Shown: positions 48,901 through 56,721 of the stretch, piece after piece | Layout of the letters: each line of letters opens with the position of its first letter | Numbering within the stretch: position 1 is the stretch's first letter | Assembly: GCA_023151185.1 (NCBI GenBank) | Contig: JAKLJL010000009.1 | Location: forward strand, 1 to 64,000 | Source: Bacteroidota bacterium | Lineage (GTDB): Bacteria; Bacteroidota; JABWAT01 | Length of the DNA: 64,000 bases | Direction: 5' to 3' | Position numbers and translations under genes: made by a program | The notes under the pieces: generated by a model | Told to the model about the DNA's origin: nothing | The model's database searches: none | Seen by the model: the letters and a program-made list of their open reading frames with translations, nothing else

Positions 48901-50223
48901 TCAGATTATTCCACGGGATTTAAGTTCGAGATATTGGCTCAGAGTATCAGTGGTCAGGTGGTCAGGAGTAGTTAAAACCGGATAAATTCCGTGTCTCTTC
49001 AATTCCAGCACCATCTGTTTTTTGTTCAGGTCAAGCATTTCTGCAAGTGATTTCCGGTAGATTCCGTGCAAATCACGGGCGGGAGTCTGTCTCAGGGAGT
49101 CAAGTTCTGTATTTTCAAAAAAAATGACAACCAGCACGTGGATTCTGGATAAGACTTTAAGGTAGGGCAACATCCGTTCCATGGCCGGCAGAGTTTCGGG
49201 ATTGGTGAAGAACAACAAAAGGCTGCGGGTTGATACCCGTGTTCTGAAGGTCTGGACCAGTAATTGAAAATCTGACTCACGGAAAGTGGTCGCCTGGTTG
49301 TAAAGCAAGCTCAGAATTTTCCTGATCTGCCCCGATTTTTTTTCAGCACCCAGAAAAGTATAAATCTGATCCGAAAAGGTAACAAGTCCTGCTTTATCGT
49401 CTTTCTTCAGAGCAATATTCAGGATGGCGAGTGACGAATTAATAGCATAATCCAAATAAGAAATGCCGTTAAAAGACCGTTTCATTGTTCTGCCCAGATC
49501 AATTACCGCATAGACAGCCTGACTTTTTTCATCCTGAAACTGGTTCACCATCAGTTTATTCAGTTTGGCCGCGGCTTTCCAGTTCAGTGTTCTGATGTCA
49601 TCCCCGGTTACGTATTCCCGAACCTGTTCAAACTCCATGGAATGACCGATTCTTCTGACCTTCCTCATGCCGGAATCGGCCACCCGTCCAGAAAATGCCA
49701 TCAGCTCATATTTTTTCATCTGAAGAAAAGAGGGGTACACGGGAACACCGGCAGCGGCAGTCAAAATAATCCGTTTAAGGGCAAGTCCGGCAGGACCGGA
49801 AACCAAAGTGATCAGGTCTCCCCAGAAATAAAGCCCCCGTTTCTGGGGGAAAACCCGGTAAGTAACCTGATGGGTTTCCCGGGGTGGCAGACCGAACCGG
49901 AACCGGGAAGTTCTGACCTGAAACTCAGCCGGAAGTTCATCGAGAAGAGTAAGCCGCAGGGTGTGATCCGATGAATTTCTGACCTGAATCCGGATTTCGT
50001 TTTCATCACCCAGTGATAAGCGTTCAGGAGTTTTTCTTACAGCAGAAACGGCACCGGTTAGTCTGGAGACCAAAACCAGATCAGCAAGGGTCATCAGCAC
50101 CAGGCCGGCCAGCAGCAGGTGAACGAGAACCAGCAAACCCGGCAGGAAAAAAGCCGCCAGATACCCGGCAGAAAGGGCCGCAAGACTCAGAAAAAACCGG
50201 GAGGTCAGGAAGAGATGCTTCAT
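48901..50223 (-). CDS. DUF58-domain protein
   Basis: A 440-residue protein with two N-terminal hydrophobic helices (about 5-50), a Ig-like region and a DUF58 domain with the signature YVTGDDIRTLNWKAAAKLNK (about residue 200) and a von Willebrand A-like fold (AVIDLGRTMKRSFNG, aspartate of a degenerate MIDAS). DUF58 proteins partner with MoxR ATPases as chaperone-type modules. It overlaps nothing but is 3 bases from both its neighbours. Confidence 0.92.
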   Translation of the reverse strand: MKHLFLTSRFFLSLAALSAGYLAAFFLPGLLVLVHLLLAGLVLMTLADLVLVSRLTGAVSAVRKTPERLSLGDENEIRIQVRNSSDHTLRLTLLDELPAEFQVRTSRFRFGLPPRETHQVTYRVFPQKRGLYFWGDLITLVSGPAGLALKRIILTAAAGVPVYPSFLQMKKYELMAFSGRVADSGMRKVRRIGHSMEFEQVREYVTGDDIRTLNWKAAAKLNKLMVNQFQDEKSQAVYAVIDLGRTMKRSFNGISYLDYAINSSLAILNIALKKDDKAGLVTFSDQIYTFLGAEKKSGQIRKILSLLYNQATTFRESDFQLLVQTFRTRVSTRSLLLFFTNPETLPAMERMLPYLKVLSRIHVLVVIFFENTELDSLRQTPARDLHGIYRKSLAEMLDLNKKQMVLELKRHGIYPVLTTPDHLTTDTLSQYLELKSRGII

Positions 50224-50226
50224 GAA

Positions 50227-51198
50227 TTATCTGGGAACTTCGGTTTGATGCAGCAGGTTCTTCAGGACCTGATCCGGCGTTTTTCCTTCAAGTTCAGCTT
50301 CAGCAGTGAGCAGAATGCGGTGCCTTAATACCGGCAATGCCATCGATTTGATATCGTCCGGAGTAATGAAATCACGGCCATTCATCACTGCAGAAGCTCT
50401 GGCTGCCGAAAGCAGGGCTAAGGCTGCACGGGGTGATCCGCCCAGAAAAATGTCTTTGGTTTCACGGGTCAGCCGAACCAGTCTGACCAGATATCCGATC
50501 AGTTCTTCAGAGGCATGAACCTGTTGGGTCATAGCCTTCAGGGCTATCAGTTGATCCTTTCCGATGACCGGCTTCAGTTTGGGAATCCGGTCGGTAACCG
50601 GTTCGGATAAAGTTTCCAGAAGAAGGCGTGTTTCTTCCTCAAGCGGCGGGTAGGAAATCAGAATGTTAAACAGAAACCGGTCCAGTTCAGCTTCAGGCAG
50701 CCGGTAAGTGCCTTCATGATCCACAGGGTTTTGCGTAGCAATTACCATAAAGGGTCTGGCCATCGGCCGGGTTACCCCGTCTACCGTTACCTGTTTCTCT
50801 TCCATTACTTCAAACAGCGCACTTTGGGTTTTTGCCGGGGCCCGGTTGACTTCATCAATCAGAACCAGTTGGGCAAAAACCGGACCTGGACGGAATTCAA
50901 AGGCTTTTTCTGCGGAAACAAAAACCGGGGTCCCGACAATGTCTGAGGGCATCAGGTCTGGGGTGAACTGAATGCGGCTGAAACTAAGATCCAGGCATCG
51001 GGAAAGCAGCCTGACTGCCCACGTTTTTCCCAAACCGGGAACGCCTTCGATCAGGACATGACCTTCAGCCAGCAGGGCTGCCGTAAGCAGATCGGCAACT
51101 TCGGGCTGGCCGGCAATGTGAGCATTAAACACGGTCCGGATCGCATTGATCCATTCAGAGGCTTGTTCAGGATTGAGTTGTTTTTCCGGGTTTTCCAT
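50227..51198 (-). CDS. MoxR-family AAA+ ATPase
   Basis: A 323-residue AAA+ ATPase with Walker A VLIEGVPGLGKTWAVRLLSR (residues about 52-72), Walker B LVLIDEVNRAPAKTQSALF, sensor 1 VIATQNPVDHEGTYRLPEAE and the C-terminal arginine region RHRILL. MoxR ATPases act as chaperones that insert metals or cofactors into, or remodel, partner complexes and typically need a DUF58/VWA partner, present next door. The start overlaps the end of DUF4350 by 32 bases. Confidence 0.95.
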   Translation of the reverse strand: MENPEKQLNPEQASEWINAIRTVFNAHIAGQPEVADLLTAALLAEGHVLIEGVPGLGKTWAVRLLSRCLDLSFSRIQFTPDLMPSDIVGTPVFVSAEKAFEFRPGPVFAQLVLIDEVNRAPAKTQSALFEVMEEKQVTVDGVTRPMARPFMVIATQNPVDHEGTYRLPEAELDRFLFNILISYPPLEEETRLLLETLSEPVTDRIPKLKPVIGKDQLIALKAMTQQVHASEELIGYLVRLVRLTRETKDIFLGGSPRAALALLSAARASAVMNGRDFITPDDIKSMALPVLRHRILLTAEAELEGKTPDQVLKNLLHQTEVPR

Positions 51199-52381
51199 GG
51201 GTTGTTCCGTTTGACAGGTGGAAATAATAATAATCTAAAAAGTGACTCAGGCTGACGAGGTCTTCCTTCCGGCAGGAGGTACTGTTCAGAAGAGTTGTGA
51301 CCAGCAGAATACCGGCTGAAAGGCGGTTTTCTTCCAGCCCGGATCTTGAGGCCAGAGTCTGAATAAAGGCGGTATCCAGTTGCCCGGTCTGCAGGTTGTA
51401 CTGTTCCCGGATGGTCATGAGCCAGTACCGGATCCGTTTTTTTGCAATCCGGCTGTGCTGACTGTCCAATTGATACAATCCGACAAGAACATCAATAAAC
51501 TTCAGGGAAGAATTTTCAGGTTTGGGGATGACCGGCACGGGCCGTTGAATCCGACGGAAATTGACGAGAAGAAAAAGGCCGGTTCCAAACCAGAACAGAA
51601 GCCATCCCTGGCGGATACCCGGTTGATTCATCAGGTAATTCACCAGACCCTGATTTTTAAACCGGCCGGATTTAAATGCTTCGTCCCACAGAACTTTTCC
51701 CTGAGGCAGTTCACTCAGAATGGTTGCCTGAAGGTGATTATTTCCGGGTTTTAGCAGTTCAATGTTGGTAAAAAGCCAGGGTGCCGAACCAAGAATAAAT
51801 TTACCGTTTCCCCAGTTCACTGAAAGAACCACCGGTTTCCCGAACCGGTCAGTGACCAGTGTGTCAGCCCAGGCAGTTGAATCGGCACTGAAAAACCGTT
51901 CGGCTGAGAGATAAACCGGAAAAAATGAAAACCTGGCCGAATCCGGATTGGTGCCGGAAAGGTGAAGGCGGCTTTCCGGGAACACATGTGGTCTGCCGTC
52001 CAGATCAAGACCAAGGCTGTCAAGCACCGATTCTCGTATCTCTTCTGCAAAAATCAGGGCATATCCACCGGCAGAGACGAATCTGAAAAGGCCTTTTTCC
52101 TCGAAAGGTGAAGGTGAAAAGCTTTTGTTGATAATCAGGACTGACTGGTAAGGGTAAGTCTCTTCGATCCTGAACGCCGGATGCTGGTTCCGGGTTTCAG
52201 GAGAGCTTTCAGGGAACAATGCCGGGAGTTGTTGCCACAGAACTGAACTGCCCAGCGGATTTTTATCAAACCGGGAGTAGGTTTCCTCCCAGTTAACCGG
52301 TTCGGGAATCAGAAACCCGACCACAAGGGCAAGGCCGATTAAGGTCAGGAAAAGCAGGGTCATAGGGAAGGGAATTTTCAT
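51167..52381 (-). CDS. DUF4350-domain membrane protein
   Basis: A 404-residue protein. It has one helix at the N-terminus (about residues 6-22, LLFLTLIGLALVVGFLI), a periplasmic-looking DUF4350 domain (RFDKNPLGSSVLWQQLPALF; LFRFVSAGGYALIFAEEI; LGSAPWLFTNIELLKPGNNH), and a second helix (about 262-282, LLFWFGTGLFLLVNF), with a cytoplasmic tail of ~120 residues. DUF4350 is found almost exclusively beside MoxR/DUF58 genes. It starts 4 bases before the end of DUF4129 (ATGA overlap). Confidence 0.88.
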   Translation of the reverse strand: MKIPFPMTLLFLTLIGLALVVGFLIPEPVNWEETYSRFDKNPLGSSVLWQQLPALFPESSPETRNQHPAFRIEETYPYQSVLIINKSFSPSPFEEKGLFRFVSAGGYALIFAEEIRESVLDSLGLDLDGRPHVFPESRLHLSGTNPDSARFSFFPVYLSAERFFSADSTAWADTLVTDRFGKPVVLSVNWGNGKFILGSAPWLFTNIELLKPGNNHLQATILSELPQGKVLWDEAFKSGRFKNQGLVNYLMNQPGIRQGWLLFWFGTGLFLLVNFRRIQRPVPVIPKPENSSLKFIDVLVGLYQLDSQHSRIAKKRIRYWLMTIREQYNLQTGQLDTAFIQTLASRSGLEENRLSAGILLVTTLLNSTSCRKEDLVSLSHFLDYYYFHLSNGTTHGKPGKTTQS

Positions 52382-53172
52382 CGCCTTTTTCCTTCCCCGG
52401 TAACTGCCGTTGCCATTACTTTAATTTGTTCATTCAGCCTGGCGGCTTCTTCCCGGCCGGTTGGTTTTTCTGACCAGGTCATTTTATCTGTTTGGGAACA
52501 GATTGACCTGAATTCCTCCAGGAAGGCAGTCCGGCTGAGGTCCCTGACGTAATCCAGATTGGTTTTATCAGGAGACCAGACAATTATTTTTTCCCGGTCG
52601 AGGAGTTTCAGCAGGTTTAAAAAACGAAACCGGATCATTTCCCGCCAGGCGCCGGCCTGTTCTGCCTGACCTGCAAGATCCTCAAGGCTGACTTCCCTCC
52701 GGATCAGATCTTCATCGGTTTCGTAGATACGGGGTGAGTTTTCCCGCCGGCTGAACAAAAGAGGTCCGGCATCAATCCGCATCAGTTTAAGCATAGCCCA
52801 TACCAGAAGCCCTGCTGCAAGGACAAGAATCAGGTAGGTTGCAGGTTTCGAGCCGAGAACCGGCTGCAGGATATTCTTCCGGATCCAGGAAAAGAAGAGA
52901 TCCAGAATGGAGGGTTCTTTATCCGGGTTGCGTTGGTACTGGTAGTCTGCCAGGGTTCTGAGGCTATCGAGGGTGGCCGGGTGAAAAGACCTGGTTACGA
53001 ATACCAGGCTGTCTTCCTCTTCTTCTTCGTCATCAAAATCAAGAGAGTCCGTGATTCCAGAATCTGCCCTCTCAATAGTCCCGGTCGAACCTGTATCCTG
53101 CGGAATGGCCTGATACGGGTTCTGGGTTTGTGCTGAACCAAAAAGAAAAAGAAAAAGAACTGCCTGTATCAA
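52378..53172 (-). CDS. DUF4129-domain protein
   Basis: A 264-residue protein with an N-terminal signal-like helix, an acidic stretch DFDDEEEEEDS (about 46-56), a transmembrane helix (about 111-128, YLILVLAAGLLVWAML) and a C-terminal DUF4129 domain (AGAWREMIRFRFLNLLKLLD, then DREKIIVW and REEAARLNEQI). DUF4129 is a common partner of MoxR/DUF58/DUF4350 clusters and of transglutaminase-like proteins. Its role is unknown. It lies 4 bases behind the membrane-protein gene. Confidence 0.83.
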   Translation of the reverse strand: MIQAVLFLFLFGSAQTQNPYQAIPQDTGSTGTIERADSGITDSLDFDDEEEEEDSLVFVTRSFHPATLDSLRTLADYQYQRNPDKEPSILDLFFSWIRKNILQPVLGSKPATYLILVLAAGLLVWAMLKLMRIDAGPLLFSRRENSPRIYETDEDLIRREVSLEDLAGQAEQAGAWREMIRFRFLNLLKLLDREKIIVWSPDKTNLDYVRDLSRTAFLEEFRSICSQTDKMTWSEKPTGREEAARLNEQIKVMATAVTGEGKRR

Positions 53173-53176
53173 AGGA

Positions 53177-54037
53177 TCATCCGTTCGATTCCGGGTCGCT
53201 GATGGCTGCTATTTTTTCCTGAAGACCAGTGGCTTCCTGCTCTTCCTGCAAAGAGTAGGCATGGACAGTAAGTCCAATTATGGTAATGACATAAGTCAGG
53301 GTTAGCAGCGGGTTAAAAAACATCGAAACATAAAGAATCAATTTTGGGAAATCAGTCCCAATCGCCCCGGTTTGAATCTGGGTTATTCCCTGAACCATTG
53401 TTAGAATGACCACGGGAATTCCTGCAACAAATCCGATCAGGGCTGAAAGCAGGTAAAGCACCAGAATGAGCCCAAAAGTAGTCCACCATTTCCCTTTGGT
53501 GTAATCCCAGGACTTTTCAATTGACTTCCAGATACTCCCGTCCCCGATTGCAGCCAACGGGGCACCAATTACGATTCTGATACCAAAAAACAGTCCGGGA
53601 ATGATTAACAGAAATAACCCGCTGATGAAAATCAGAAGGGAAAGGAACCAGATTCCGGCAAACGGAAGCAGTTTTGTTTTTCCTTCATCCCAGATTTCCC
53701 TGACAGATATTTCTGCTGATTGTTTCTGTTCATATACTTTAACGGCTGCCATGGCCAGAGCCCACATAAGAAATACCCCGGGAAGGGTCAGTAAGCTGGA
53801 AAGAAGTGTGGCTTTTACTGTGCCTGCAATATTTTCGGGATTTCCCAACAGAATTGGATCTAACATGGAGAGGACAAAAAAGGTATGGATTACCGAGCCG
53901 ATCAGCAAAACAGGGAAGGCTATGGCAAACTGTGACAGCATCAGCGGTTTGAATAAATGCCGGATCAGGGATAAAGTTGTGTTCAGGGTTTCACTGAAGT
54001 TTCTGACTTTTTTCAGTTCAATTTCCTGCGGAATCAT
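53177..54037 (-). CDS. Polytopic membrane protein of the MoxR cluster
   Basis: A 286-residue protein with about six hydrophobic segments, for example LPGVFLMWALAMAAVKVYE, FLSLLIFISGLFLLIIPGLF and TFGLILVLYLLSALIGFVA. It recalls DUF975/DUF4013-type or glycerophosphodiester-phosphodiesterase membrane domains (SWDYTKGKWWTTFGLI is the pattern seen there). No enzymatic motif is visible. AAGGAG five bases before ATG 54037 decides the start over an upstream ATG at 54091. It overlaps the SpoIIM-like gene by 20 bases. Confidence 0.75.
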   Translation of the reverse strand: MIPQEIELKKVRNFSETLNTTLSLIRHLFKPLMLSQFAIAFPVLLIGSVIHTFFVLSMLDPILLGNPENIAGTVKATLLSSLLTLPGVFLMWALAMAAVKVYEQKQSAEISVREIWDEGKTKLLPFAGIWFLSLLIFISGLFLLIIPGLFFGIRIVIGAPLAAIGDGSIWKSIEKSWDYTKGKWWTTFGLILVLYLLSALIGFVAGIPVVILTMVQGITQIQTGAIGTDFPKLILYVSMFFNPLLTLTYVITIIGLTVHAYSLQEEQEATGLQEKIAAISDPESNG

Positions 54038-54992
54038 GTGATCTCCTTGTGTTGATAAACCATGGATAAAGGACAAAATAACCCAATACAAAACAGCCGG
54101 TCAGGACCATTACCGATACAGAAAGCCAAAGTCCTGCTCCCGAAAACCGGGTTAGGGCAGATTCCAGCGCTGCAGCCAGAATGATCAGCGGGAAAACCCC
54201 AATGGTCAGCTTCAGGCCATTTTTAACGCCGGTTCTAAAAGAGTAACCTCTGGGAAAGGTTCCCGGAAAAAGAAGGCTCCGGCCGATCTGAAGTCCGGCT
54301 GCCCCGGCAAGTATAATACAGGATATTTCAAGGGTTCCATGAATCCAGATTCCTGCCATCCCCTCAAAATTCACTTTCTGATTCAGAAAAACGGAGAGGA
54401 AAGCCCCGATCATGATCCCATTGCTGATCAGGTAATAAACCGTCCCGATACCGGCGATCACGCCGGATACAAAGACCAGAACCGAAACAAACAGATTGTT
54501 GAAGGCAATGGAAAGGAACATCGGCAGAACCGGGTTGCTGTCATAAACTGCAAGAGGAGTTCCGTTATTGATGTTATCAAGGGTCATCCGGATGTAGGAT
54601 TCACCGAGAATCTGAGTCGGAAAATCGGAGTCAAACAGCCCGGAAAAAAGTCCGATCGCAACTGAAATGAGCATCAGAATAAAGGCAAGAATTCCCTCTG
54701 TACGGAATGAGACCATCAGCAGAGGCAATTCTGTTGTCCAGAAATTCAGGAGGCGTGATCCCGGTTCCTTTTTATTCCGGTAAATGAGGGCATATAATTT
54801 TACGGCCAGACTGTTCAGGTAAATGGTGGTTTTACTTTTCGGGAAAAAAGTCTGGGCATAGGCGAGATCATCAGACAGCAGCATATAATTTTCTGCAAGG
54901 AAATCAGGGTCGGCGGCTGCCGGGCGTGTTAAAACCTGTTCAAGTGATTTCCATCGGGTATGATTCTGGCGAATAAAACTGACTTCCGTCAT
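54018..54992 (-). CDS. SpoIIM-superfamily (DUF95) membrane protein
   Basis: A 324-residue protein with about six transmembrane segments and the stage-II-sporulation-protein-M pattern: an N-terminal cytoplasmic RQNHTRWKSLEQVLTRP, then FAFILM-like helices with AIGLFSGLFDSDFPTQILGE, LFVSVLVFVSGVIAGIG and GIWIHGTLEISCIILAGAAG (conserved HG in the membrane). Though named for sporulation, the family is widespread in non-spore-formers next to RDD and MoxR/DUF58 genes. It begins the cluster; no clear promoter was found upstream (54993-55083). Confidence 0.88.
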   Translation of the reverse strand: MTEVSFIRQNHTRWKSLEQVLTRPAAADPDFLAENYMLLSDDLAYAQTFFPKSKTTIYLNSLAVKLYALIYRNKKEPGSRLLNFWTTELPLLMVSFRTEGILAFILMLISVAIGLFSGLFDSDFPTQILGESYIRMTLDNINNGTPLAVYDSNPVLPMFLSIAFNNLFVSVLVFVSGVIAGIGTVYYLISNGIMIGAFLSVFLNQKVNFEGMAGIWIHGTLEISCIILAGAAGLQIGRSLLFPGTFPRGYSFRTGVKNGLKLTIGVFPLIILAAALESALTRFSGAGLWLSVSVMVLTGCFVLGYFVLYPWFINTRRSHDSAGN

Positions 54993-55083: not shown

Positions 55084-55245
55084 TCAGGAGTGACCGCCGA
55101 TAACGATTTTCATGACCTTCAGGTTCAGGACAAAAAACCGGATAATCTGCCAGGGCCAGAATACCCGGAAGAATTTGTTGAGCCCGGTCGGTACCGGTGG
55201 GTAATCTTCTTCTTTATACCCTTTTGGAATCGGTTTATCAATCAT
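55084..55245 (-). CDS. Microprotein (53 residues) behind the SQR gene
   Basis: A small open frame that starts MIDKPIPKGYKEEDYPPVPT, continues GLNKFFRVFWPWQIIRFFVL and ends NLKVMKIVIGGHS. The ribosome binding site GGAG lies 7 bases before the ATG. The C-terminal two thirds are hydrophobic and aromatic, so the protein probably associates with the membrane, perhaps as an amphipathic or re-entrant helix. It follows the sulfide:quinone oxidoreductase gene by 18 bases on the same strand, so it would be made with it. I do not recognise a family. The balance of aromatic and basic residues, start signal and position argue that it is a real gene. Confidence 0.7.
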   Translation of the reverse strand: MIDKPIPKGYKEEDYPPVPTGLNKFFRVFWPWQIIRFFVLNLKVMKIVIGGHS

Positions 55246-55263
55246 ACCAGTTCTCCGTAAAAT

Positions 55264-56721
55264 TTATTCAGGGATCAAGGACCAGCCGGGAAGCCCTTTG
55301 GCCTTGTAAATAAACATGTAGTGCATGAACAGTTTCATCCAGTGGCCGGCAAGCCCGGGTTCTCCAACCGTGTAATTCAGGTCGCGTCCCCATTGGGGGT
55401 ATTTTTCAAAATCGGGTACGATCGGGAATACAGTCATGGTGGCTGCCATTCCCTTTGTAACCCCATACCCCGAGGAAACGATGCAGGCAGCACCCATCCG
55501 GCCCATCGATGCCCGGTGATTCAGACTCAGTTTCCCGGCCTTGACGGTATCAACAATATTCATGGCAACGACTTTCCCCTGAACCCCGGATGGCATTCCG
55601 GTTCTGGGAGGCGTCGGGTAAATGGGGTTGCCATTTTTACTGAGGGTCGGTTTGGAAATGGGGTGTGGCGGAGCGAATGCGATTCCGGATGCAAAAACAT
55701 TCGGATAAAGGGCACTTTGGTAGGTGGAAGGCCAGTCTTTAACCGACCAGCTTTCAAAAGGTTTCTGGGTATAATCGGCATCCACCTTCATGAGCCCGTT
55801 GGGAGCAAAAACAGTAGAAGAAATGTCGTCTCCGGCCTTATTAACGGCTTTCAGTCCAACACCGGCGAAGGCCGGAATCAGCATGGCAAAATCAAATTCA
55901 ATTTCCCGGATTTCACCATCCAGGTTTTCGTAAATTGCCTTTCCCGGTTCTACTTTTTTAATACCGGCCCGTTTAATCCATTTAATACCGTATTCTGCCA
56001 GAATGGATTCGGTAAAAATCTTGGTTGAGGTGACGTATCCGCCTTTTTTAATGAAGGCACCGCCCATTCCGAAATCCCCGAGTTCATATTCGTTGGTAAT
56101 CCAGGTAATTTCTGCCAGATGACCGAGTTTTCTCTGGTTGATTTCGAAGGCGACGTTCAGAATATATTCAAATGCAGCACCCTGGCAGGTTGCAGTTGGG
56201 TGACCGGTGCCAATCAGAAAGCGTTGTTTTTCACCTTTTTCCATTTTTGCCAGAGAAACTTTCAGTGCTTCCCAGCTTTTGGATGCATGTGAGTAGGTGC
56301 AGACCGAGTTCGAATTCAGCTCAGGACCAAGTCCTTCGGTTGCTGCGAAATTCAGTTTGGGGCCGGTTGCATTGACCAGAAAATCGTAATCTACCCGTTC
56401 GGTCTGGCCTTTTTTATCTTCTGTCATGTACTCAATTTCAACAAATGGCCGGTCAGAGTCTGGCGATCCTTCCGGATGAAGTACCCGGGCAGCGGCCTGT
56501 TTGAAAATGATTCCCTTTTTATCATAAACCGGTTTCAGCGGGAAAATCACCTGTTCAGGTTTCATCTGCCCGATGCCAACCCAGATGTTCGAGGGTATCC
56601 ATTGGTAATTGGCCGCCGGACTGATCACCACCACTTCATGGTTTTTTCCCAGCTTCTTTTTTAAAATCATTGAGGCCGTATGACCGGAAATTCCTGCGCC
56701 GAGAACGACAATTTTCGCCAT
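55264..56721 (-). CDS. sqr: Sulfide:quinone oxidoreductase-like flavoprotein
   Basis: A 485-residue NAD(P)/FAD-fold oxidoreductase of the SQR/NDH-2 family: FAD motif KIVVLGAGISGHTASMILKK (residues 3-22), a long middle part with a cysteine in GTGHPTATCQGAAFE, ASGIAFAPPHPISKPTLSKN, and a second cysteine in GRMGAACIVSSGYG. The C-terminal FMHYMFIYKAKGLPGW is the amphipathic membrane anchor of SQR. It would oxidise sulfide and pass electrons to the quinone pool. The two conserved cysteines fit SQR rather than NADH dehydrogenase; the SQR type is not decided. AAGGA five bases before ATG 56721 sets the start; the open frame extends further upstream, through the terminator of the OPT gene. Confidence 0.85.
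   Translation of the reverse strand: MAKIVVLGAGISGHTASMILKKKLGKNHEVVVISPAANYQWIPSNIWVGIGQMKPEQVIFPLKPVYDKKGIIFKQAAARVLHPEGSPDSDRPFVEIEYMTEDKKGQTERVDYDFLVNATGPKLNFAATEGLGPELNSNSVCTYSHASKSWEALKVSLAKMEKGEKQRFLIGTGHPTATCQGAAFEYILNVAFEINQRKLGHLAEITWITNEYELGDFGMGGAFIKKGGYVTSTKIFTESILAEYGIKWIKRAGIKKVEPGKAIYENLDGEIREIEFDFAMLIPAFAGVGLKAVNKAGDDISSTVFAPNGLMKVDADYTQKPFESWSVKDWPSTYQSALYPNVFASGIAFAPPHPISKPTLSKNGNPIYPTPPRTGMPSGVQGKVVAMNIVDTVKAGKLSLNHRASMGRMGAACIVSSGYGVTKGMAATMTVFPIVPDFEKYPQWGRDLNYTVGEPGLAGHWMKLFMHYMFIYKAKGLPGWSLIPE

Follow-up and report, generated by a model that had tools for sequence, protein, structure and literature searches.

We identified a 53-residue microprotein, encoded directly behind the gene for sulfide:quinone oxidoreductase (SQR) in the window (the whole stretch of 64,000 nucleotides of Bacteroidota DNA analyzed here), that is, as judged by sequence comparison, a real and ancient companion of this SQR class in green sulfur bacteria, Bacteroidota and Proteobacteria. 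Of the possible readings of this gene, that of a dedicated SQR partner is clearly the strongest, and the partnership is very well supported because the position is conserved, co-occurrence with the enzyme is complete and purifying selection acts on the frame. An SQR clade with a nameless, universal partner suggests that a small second subunit may have gone unnoticed. We consider the chances about even that the microprotein is a dedicated small subunit that docks on the C-terminal quinone/membrane domain of this SQR class and supplies a helix in trans.

The sqr gene (minus strand, 55264–56721; ATG at 56721, TAA at 55264–55266) encodes 485 amino acids and was assigned from its match to A. aeolicus SQR (1.6e-32) and three invariant cysteines. 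The microprotein gene (minus strand, 55084–55245; ATG start, TGA stop), recognized from its frame, homologues and pN/pS, follows the sqr TAA after 18 nt in the same reading frame and encodes MIDKPIPKGYKEEDYPPVPTGLNKFFRVFWPWQIIRFFVLNLKVMKIVIGGHS. By direct reading, a GGAG ribosome-binding site lies 7 nt 5′ of its ATG (minus strand, 55253–55256). The frame, length, peptide, GGAG site and gap to sqr recorded in the initial annotation are all exact; its claim that both genes share a strand also holds, the strand being minus, which it had left unstated. Its proposal that the microprotein is co-transcribed with sqr is, we infer, likely. A minus-strand scan around the pair found no terminator-like signal between the two genes, and a scan for promoter-like sites around the pair gave none above shuffled sequences. 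Downstream, a minus-strand cluster (48901–54992) encodes several membrane proteins, one of them SpoIIM-like, together with a DUF58-like protein and a MoxR-like ATPase (all named by eye), with no visible link to sulfide.

Comparison with relatives indicates that 55084–55245 is a genuine gene and excludes a chance frame by far, since intact homologous frames occupy the same place in approximately 150 loci and pN/pS is 0.10–0.13. Specifically, pN/pS was 0.095 across 41 independent pairs and 0.135 across all 446 pairs; SQR itself gave 0.118 in the same pairs as the latter value. The purifying selection that the initial annotation had expected is thus strong and resembles that on SQR. The frame is short and is overlapped by a plus-strand ORF (55090–55260), the plus strand of 55084–55245 encoding a different peptide, and one might accordingly suppose a spurious frame conserved through an overlapping RNA element or another frame; this is refuted by the codon pattern, with the pN/pS values above and protein identity of 33–45% maintained across phyla, and we regard it as next to impossible. 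The initial annotation had also treated the gene as unannotated and as below the length that gene callers usually accept. It is true that no family model matches (neither the microprotein nor its alignment had matches in Pfam, NCBIfam or PDB), but three plasmid homologues are annotated as “hypothetical protein” with WP accessions.

The initial annotation had staked its proposal on a homologue beside sqr in related genomes and a frame unbroken in close relatives, and both were found. Taking one genome per species with SQR, we assembled 80 sqr loci; 78 of these had a homologous frame following sqr in the same orientation. The two loci without a microprotein end early, at 54 nt (L082) and 357 nt (L041, which is repeat-rich) past sqr. 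The distance between sqr and the microprotein was 11–183 nt in 75 of the 78 loci and approximately 720–800 nt, with an insertion, in L035, L036 and L038. The insertion in L036 contains a 140-residue ORF (L036:4584–5006) flanked by short repeats, which by eye resembles the four-helix-bundle (23S rRNA intervening-sequence) family; the gaps in L035 and L038 are similarly long.

Within a sample of 395 genomes of the phylum, SQR was present in 96 (E ≤ 1e-60), and 95 of these 96 also had the microprotein. A single-sequence search placed it beside SQR in 81 of the 96 genomes, a profile search detected a divergent copy behind sqr in 14 of the remaining 15, and in the last (G212) the contig stops 138 nt after sqr. 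Among the 395 genomes, no convincing copy was found in those lacking SQR, and the strong unpaired matches (G196, G156, G160 and G176) sit at contig ends. No strong copy contains an internal stop codon. Two microprotein-like matches without SQR (G081 and G304) were rejected as chance, with E values of approximately 0.002 and, in one case, three internal stops. The other genus in the window's own family (G001) has neither SQR nor microprotein, and no fused SQR-microprotein chain occurred in any locus examined. A dedicated small subunit would be expected to be tied to its enzyme this closely, in both gene position and occurrence. A dedicated chaperone would also fit one-to-one linkage, and the microprotein may instead be a transient assembly or targeting factor (acting in FAD loading, folding, membrane delivery or export of an enzyme without a leader) that never becomes a permanent subunit. 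By inspection the SQR, which begins MAKIVVLGAG, has no signal peptide, and in Rhodobacter capsulatus the SQR C-terminus has been implicated in export. Translation beside sqr in every genome better fits the fixed stoichiometry of a subunit.

Beyond the phylum, credible microprotein matches were found on only three of 72,556 plasmids, from Candidatus Thiodictyon syntrophicum (Gammaproteobacteria), Sulfurovum mangrovi (Campylobacterota) and Marivivens (Alphaproteobacteria). Each plasmid carries an SQR 54–60% identical to the window SQR with a homologue of 52–53 residues directly behind it, and every neighbor other than sqr differs among the three. No microprotein was found near plasmid SQR-like genes at 27–31% identity or near an SQR paralogue at 35% identity in one genome (G033), and viral contigs contained no relative. 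Phage records with SQR gave a single distant match, which we discarded as without meaning. The complete change of neighbors argues against a membrane peptide with a regulatory or toxin-like role that is linked to sqr only through the operon, as does the fact that copies without SQR are confined to contig ends or weak chance matches; the peptide is small, basic and hydrophobic, and the operon has one other conserved gene, as such a peptide might, but we find this reading very improbable.

In the SQR itself, the N-terminal FAD Rossmann motif GxGxxG (G8, G10 and G13) is invariant, as are the redox cysteines C141, C179 and C413 across 36 SQR sequences, type I enzymes having three; the best Foldseek matches of its model are the A. 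ferrooxidans and A. aeolicus SQRs (TM-score by target, 0.82–0.89). It falls below the Pfam Pyr_redox_2 cut-off (22.1 vs 26.1 bits) and far below that of the only matching NCBIfam SQR model (49 vs 525 bits), and because of these low scores most of its relatives carry no annotation more specific than “FAD-dependent oxidoreductase.” Curated family models thus have a blind spot that takes in both this SQR clade and its partner. Orthologues of the window SQR occur in FMO-bearing genomes: two families (f8 and f5) of the phylum sample carry FMO in the genomes tested, which marks them as green sulfur bacteria. The orthologue in one complete genome of 2.2 Mb is located at 112 kb, which would fit the position of CT0117, the type IV SQR SqrD of C. 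tepidum (PMC4584964), a species also cited in PMC4288042 and PMC3368242. The FMO-bearing genomes and this one position suggest that the window SQR belongs to type IV (SqrD). Several of the green sulfur loci (L139–L151) contain a second, sister SQR clade, 40–45% identical and probably SqrX, whose partner has 38 residues and begins MRPTSF; some genomes carry only this second clade and some carry both.

What distinguishes this SQR from type I is its C-terminus. AlphaFold2 predicts that the SQR alone ends in a single amphipathic helix (residues 457–474; codons at 55300–55353, minus strand), which is also seen in alignment with type I-like SQRs; the chain stops 11 residues past this helix, and the second C-terminal amphipathic helix that type I enzymes carry in the same chain is absent. 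While type I-like SQRs run on past the first helix in the alignment, with a stretch that forms a second amphipathic helix in published structures, the clade of the window SQR has no further segment. A pair of amphipathic helices at the C-terminus is usual among SQRs, and truncation of these helices in SqrC of C. maquilingensis left the enzyme cytoplasmic and inactive (PMC9666304). A second helix is not always required, as type VI SQRs function with one, with no partner reported (PMC9666304). The quinone site of type I enzymes is formed by residues next to the cysteine of the C-terminal domain and a Phe of the first C-terminal helix (PMC9666304).

We modeled the SQR and microprotein with AlphaFold2 as one read-through chain, solely as a modeling device, which the shared register of the two frames permits in the window and in some relatives; the input left out plasmid loci. 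The model had a mean pLDDT of 87, and microprotein residues 21–28 and 30–51 were helical (block pLDDT 76–89), with residues 1–16 below 50. The second of these helices (helix 522–543 of the model; codons at 55093–55158, minus strand) is the conserved core. Gln33 is invariant in the homologue alignment, Phe37, Asn41, Lys43 and Val48 are nearly so, and Gln33, Phe37, Asn41 and Val48 share one helix face (permutation p 0.026); the C-terminal GHS is mostly fixed. Homologue lengths cluster at 52–56 residues, and the shorter forms of 38 and 43–49 residues (e.g., family f13) retain the helix but not the head. The acidic-proline head that the initial annotation had emphasized is not the key part, being poorly conserved, predicted at low confidence and missing in the 38-residue forms. 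The membrane-seeking tail it had proposed does correspond to this helical C-terminal core, but the conserved Gln, Arg, Asn and Lys in this helix make it amphipathic rather than transmembrane. For a chaperone, one short amphipathic helix, conserved on one side and with a largely invariable C-terminus, is small, and overall we think a transient role in assembly or targeting rather unlikely.

Several observations point the helix of a permanent subunit toward the C-terminal domain of SQR. The pLDDT of SQR residues 411–430, around Cys413, rose from 70–73 for SQR alone to 84 with the microprotein. Out of 25,705 inter-protein column pairs, the top-ranking was SQR 450/454 with microprotein 36; where SQR 454 is acidic, 83 of 89 sequences have a basic residue at microprotein 36, compared with 1 of 32 where SQR 454 is non-acidic. 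After correction for the tree, this coupling comprised approximately six changes with two concordant independent pairs and was non-significant, and with so few independent changes it is suggestive. The remaining signal in the mutual information map was noisy and scattered across a number of SQR regions, with approximately 42 effective sequences. Adding the microprotein raised the TM-score by target from 0.82 to 0.85 for A. aeolicus and left that for A. ferrooxidans unchanged or slightly lower; because the model is not consistently closer to type I SQR with the microprotein, occupation of the second-helix site is unconfirmed. These scores, together with the scattered covariation, would suit a microprotein that docks elsewhere on SQR, for instance where the units of an oligomer meet or where it could connect SQR to another respiratory component, without replacing the second C-terminal helix. 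This we judge fairly improbable, as the C-terminal quinone domain is singled out both by the strongest covarying pair and by the rise in model confidence, and the SQR clade lacks exactly such a helix. Docking of the subunit at the C-terminal domain is plausible, drawing on one-sided conservation and the suggestive charge coupling. The membrane or quinone-site docking imagined in the initial annotation can now be framed more specifically, by the missing second helix, the conserved face and the coupled charges close to the C-terminal helix of SQR, although the comparison of structures gave no confirmation of this placement.

Under this proposal, the products of sqr and the microprotein gene would come from one mRNA. 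Helix 30–51 would pack its conserved face (Gln33, Phe37, Asn41 and Val48) onto the SQR C-terminal domain, beside the strand and helix at 450–474, which border the quinone pocket, while the opposite face would sit in the membrane interface. The microprotein would in this way supply the second anchoring or quinone-channel helix in trans, and the resulting SQR would be membrane-bound and quinone-active. A helix in trans is the most economical account of the missing segment, the helix face, the coupling, the pLDDT gain and the loss of function in truncated SqrC taken together. If true, the partner would explain how an SQR without a second C-terminal helix holds to the membrane and quinone. It would matter to anyone expressing the enzyme, could be tested directly in strains with genetics, and concerns an SQR type that is widespread in sulfidic habitats. 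Taken further, type IV and related SQRs may be two-subunit enzymes whose second membrane/quinone-channel helix was split off before their spread among phyla, in which case work on SqrD without the microprotein studied an incomplete enzyme; we hold this quite possible, if a little short of an even chance.

Compared with type I SQR (SqrA; A. aeolicus 3HYV/3HYW and A. ferrooxidans 3T31), the window SQR has the same fold, and its C-terminal helix aligns with the first of theirs. In type I enzymes a single chain carries both amphipathic helices of the C-terminus (PMC9666304), whereas here one lies in SQR and a similar one is a separate protein. For SqrD (C. tepidum CT0117 and A. vinosum Alvin_2145), the likeness is that green sulfur genomes, recognized by FMO, contain orthologues of the window SQR. 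The openly licensed papers examined present SqrD as a single gene product and do not mention a small partner, and we found no mention of the microprotein gene in openly licensed literature. A similar gene arrangement is known from CydX, a small transmembrane subunit of an integral respiratory complex that is encoded directly behind the gene for the large enzyme. Like CydX and similar small subunits of respiratory enzymes, the microprotein is short, conserved and encoded directly behind a large enzyme gene. Unlike the transmembrane CydX, the microprotein is amphipathic with conserved charges, and its partner is a monotopic flavoenzyme.
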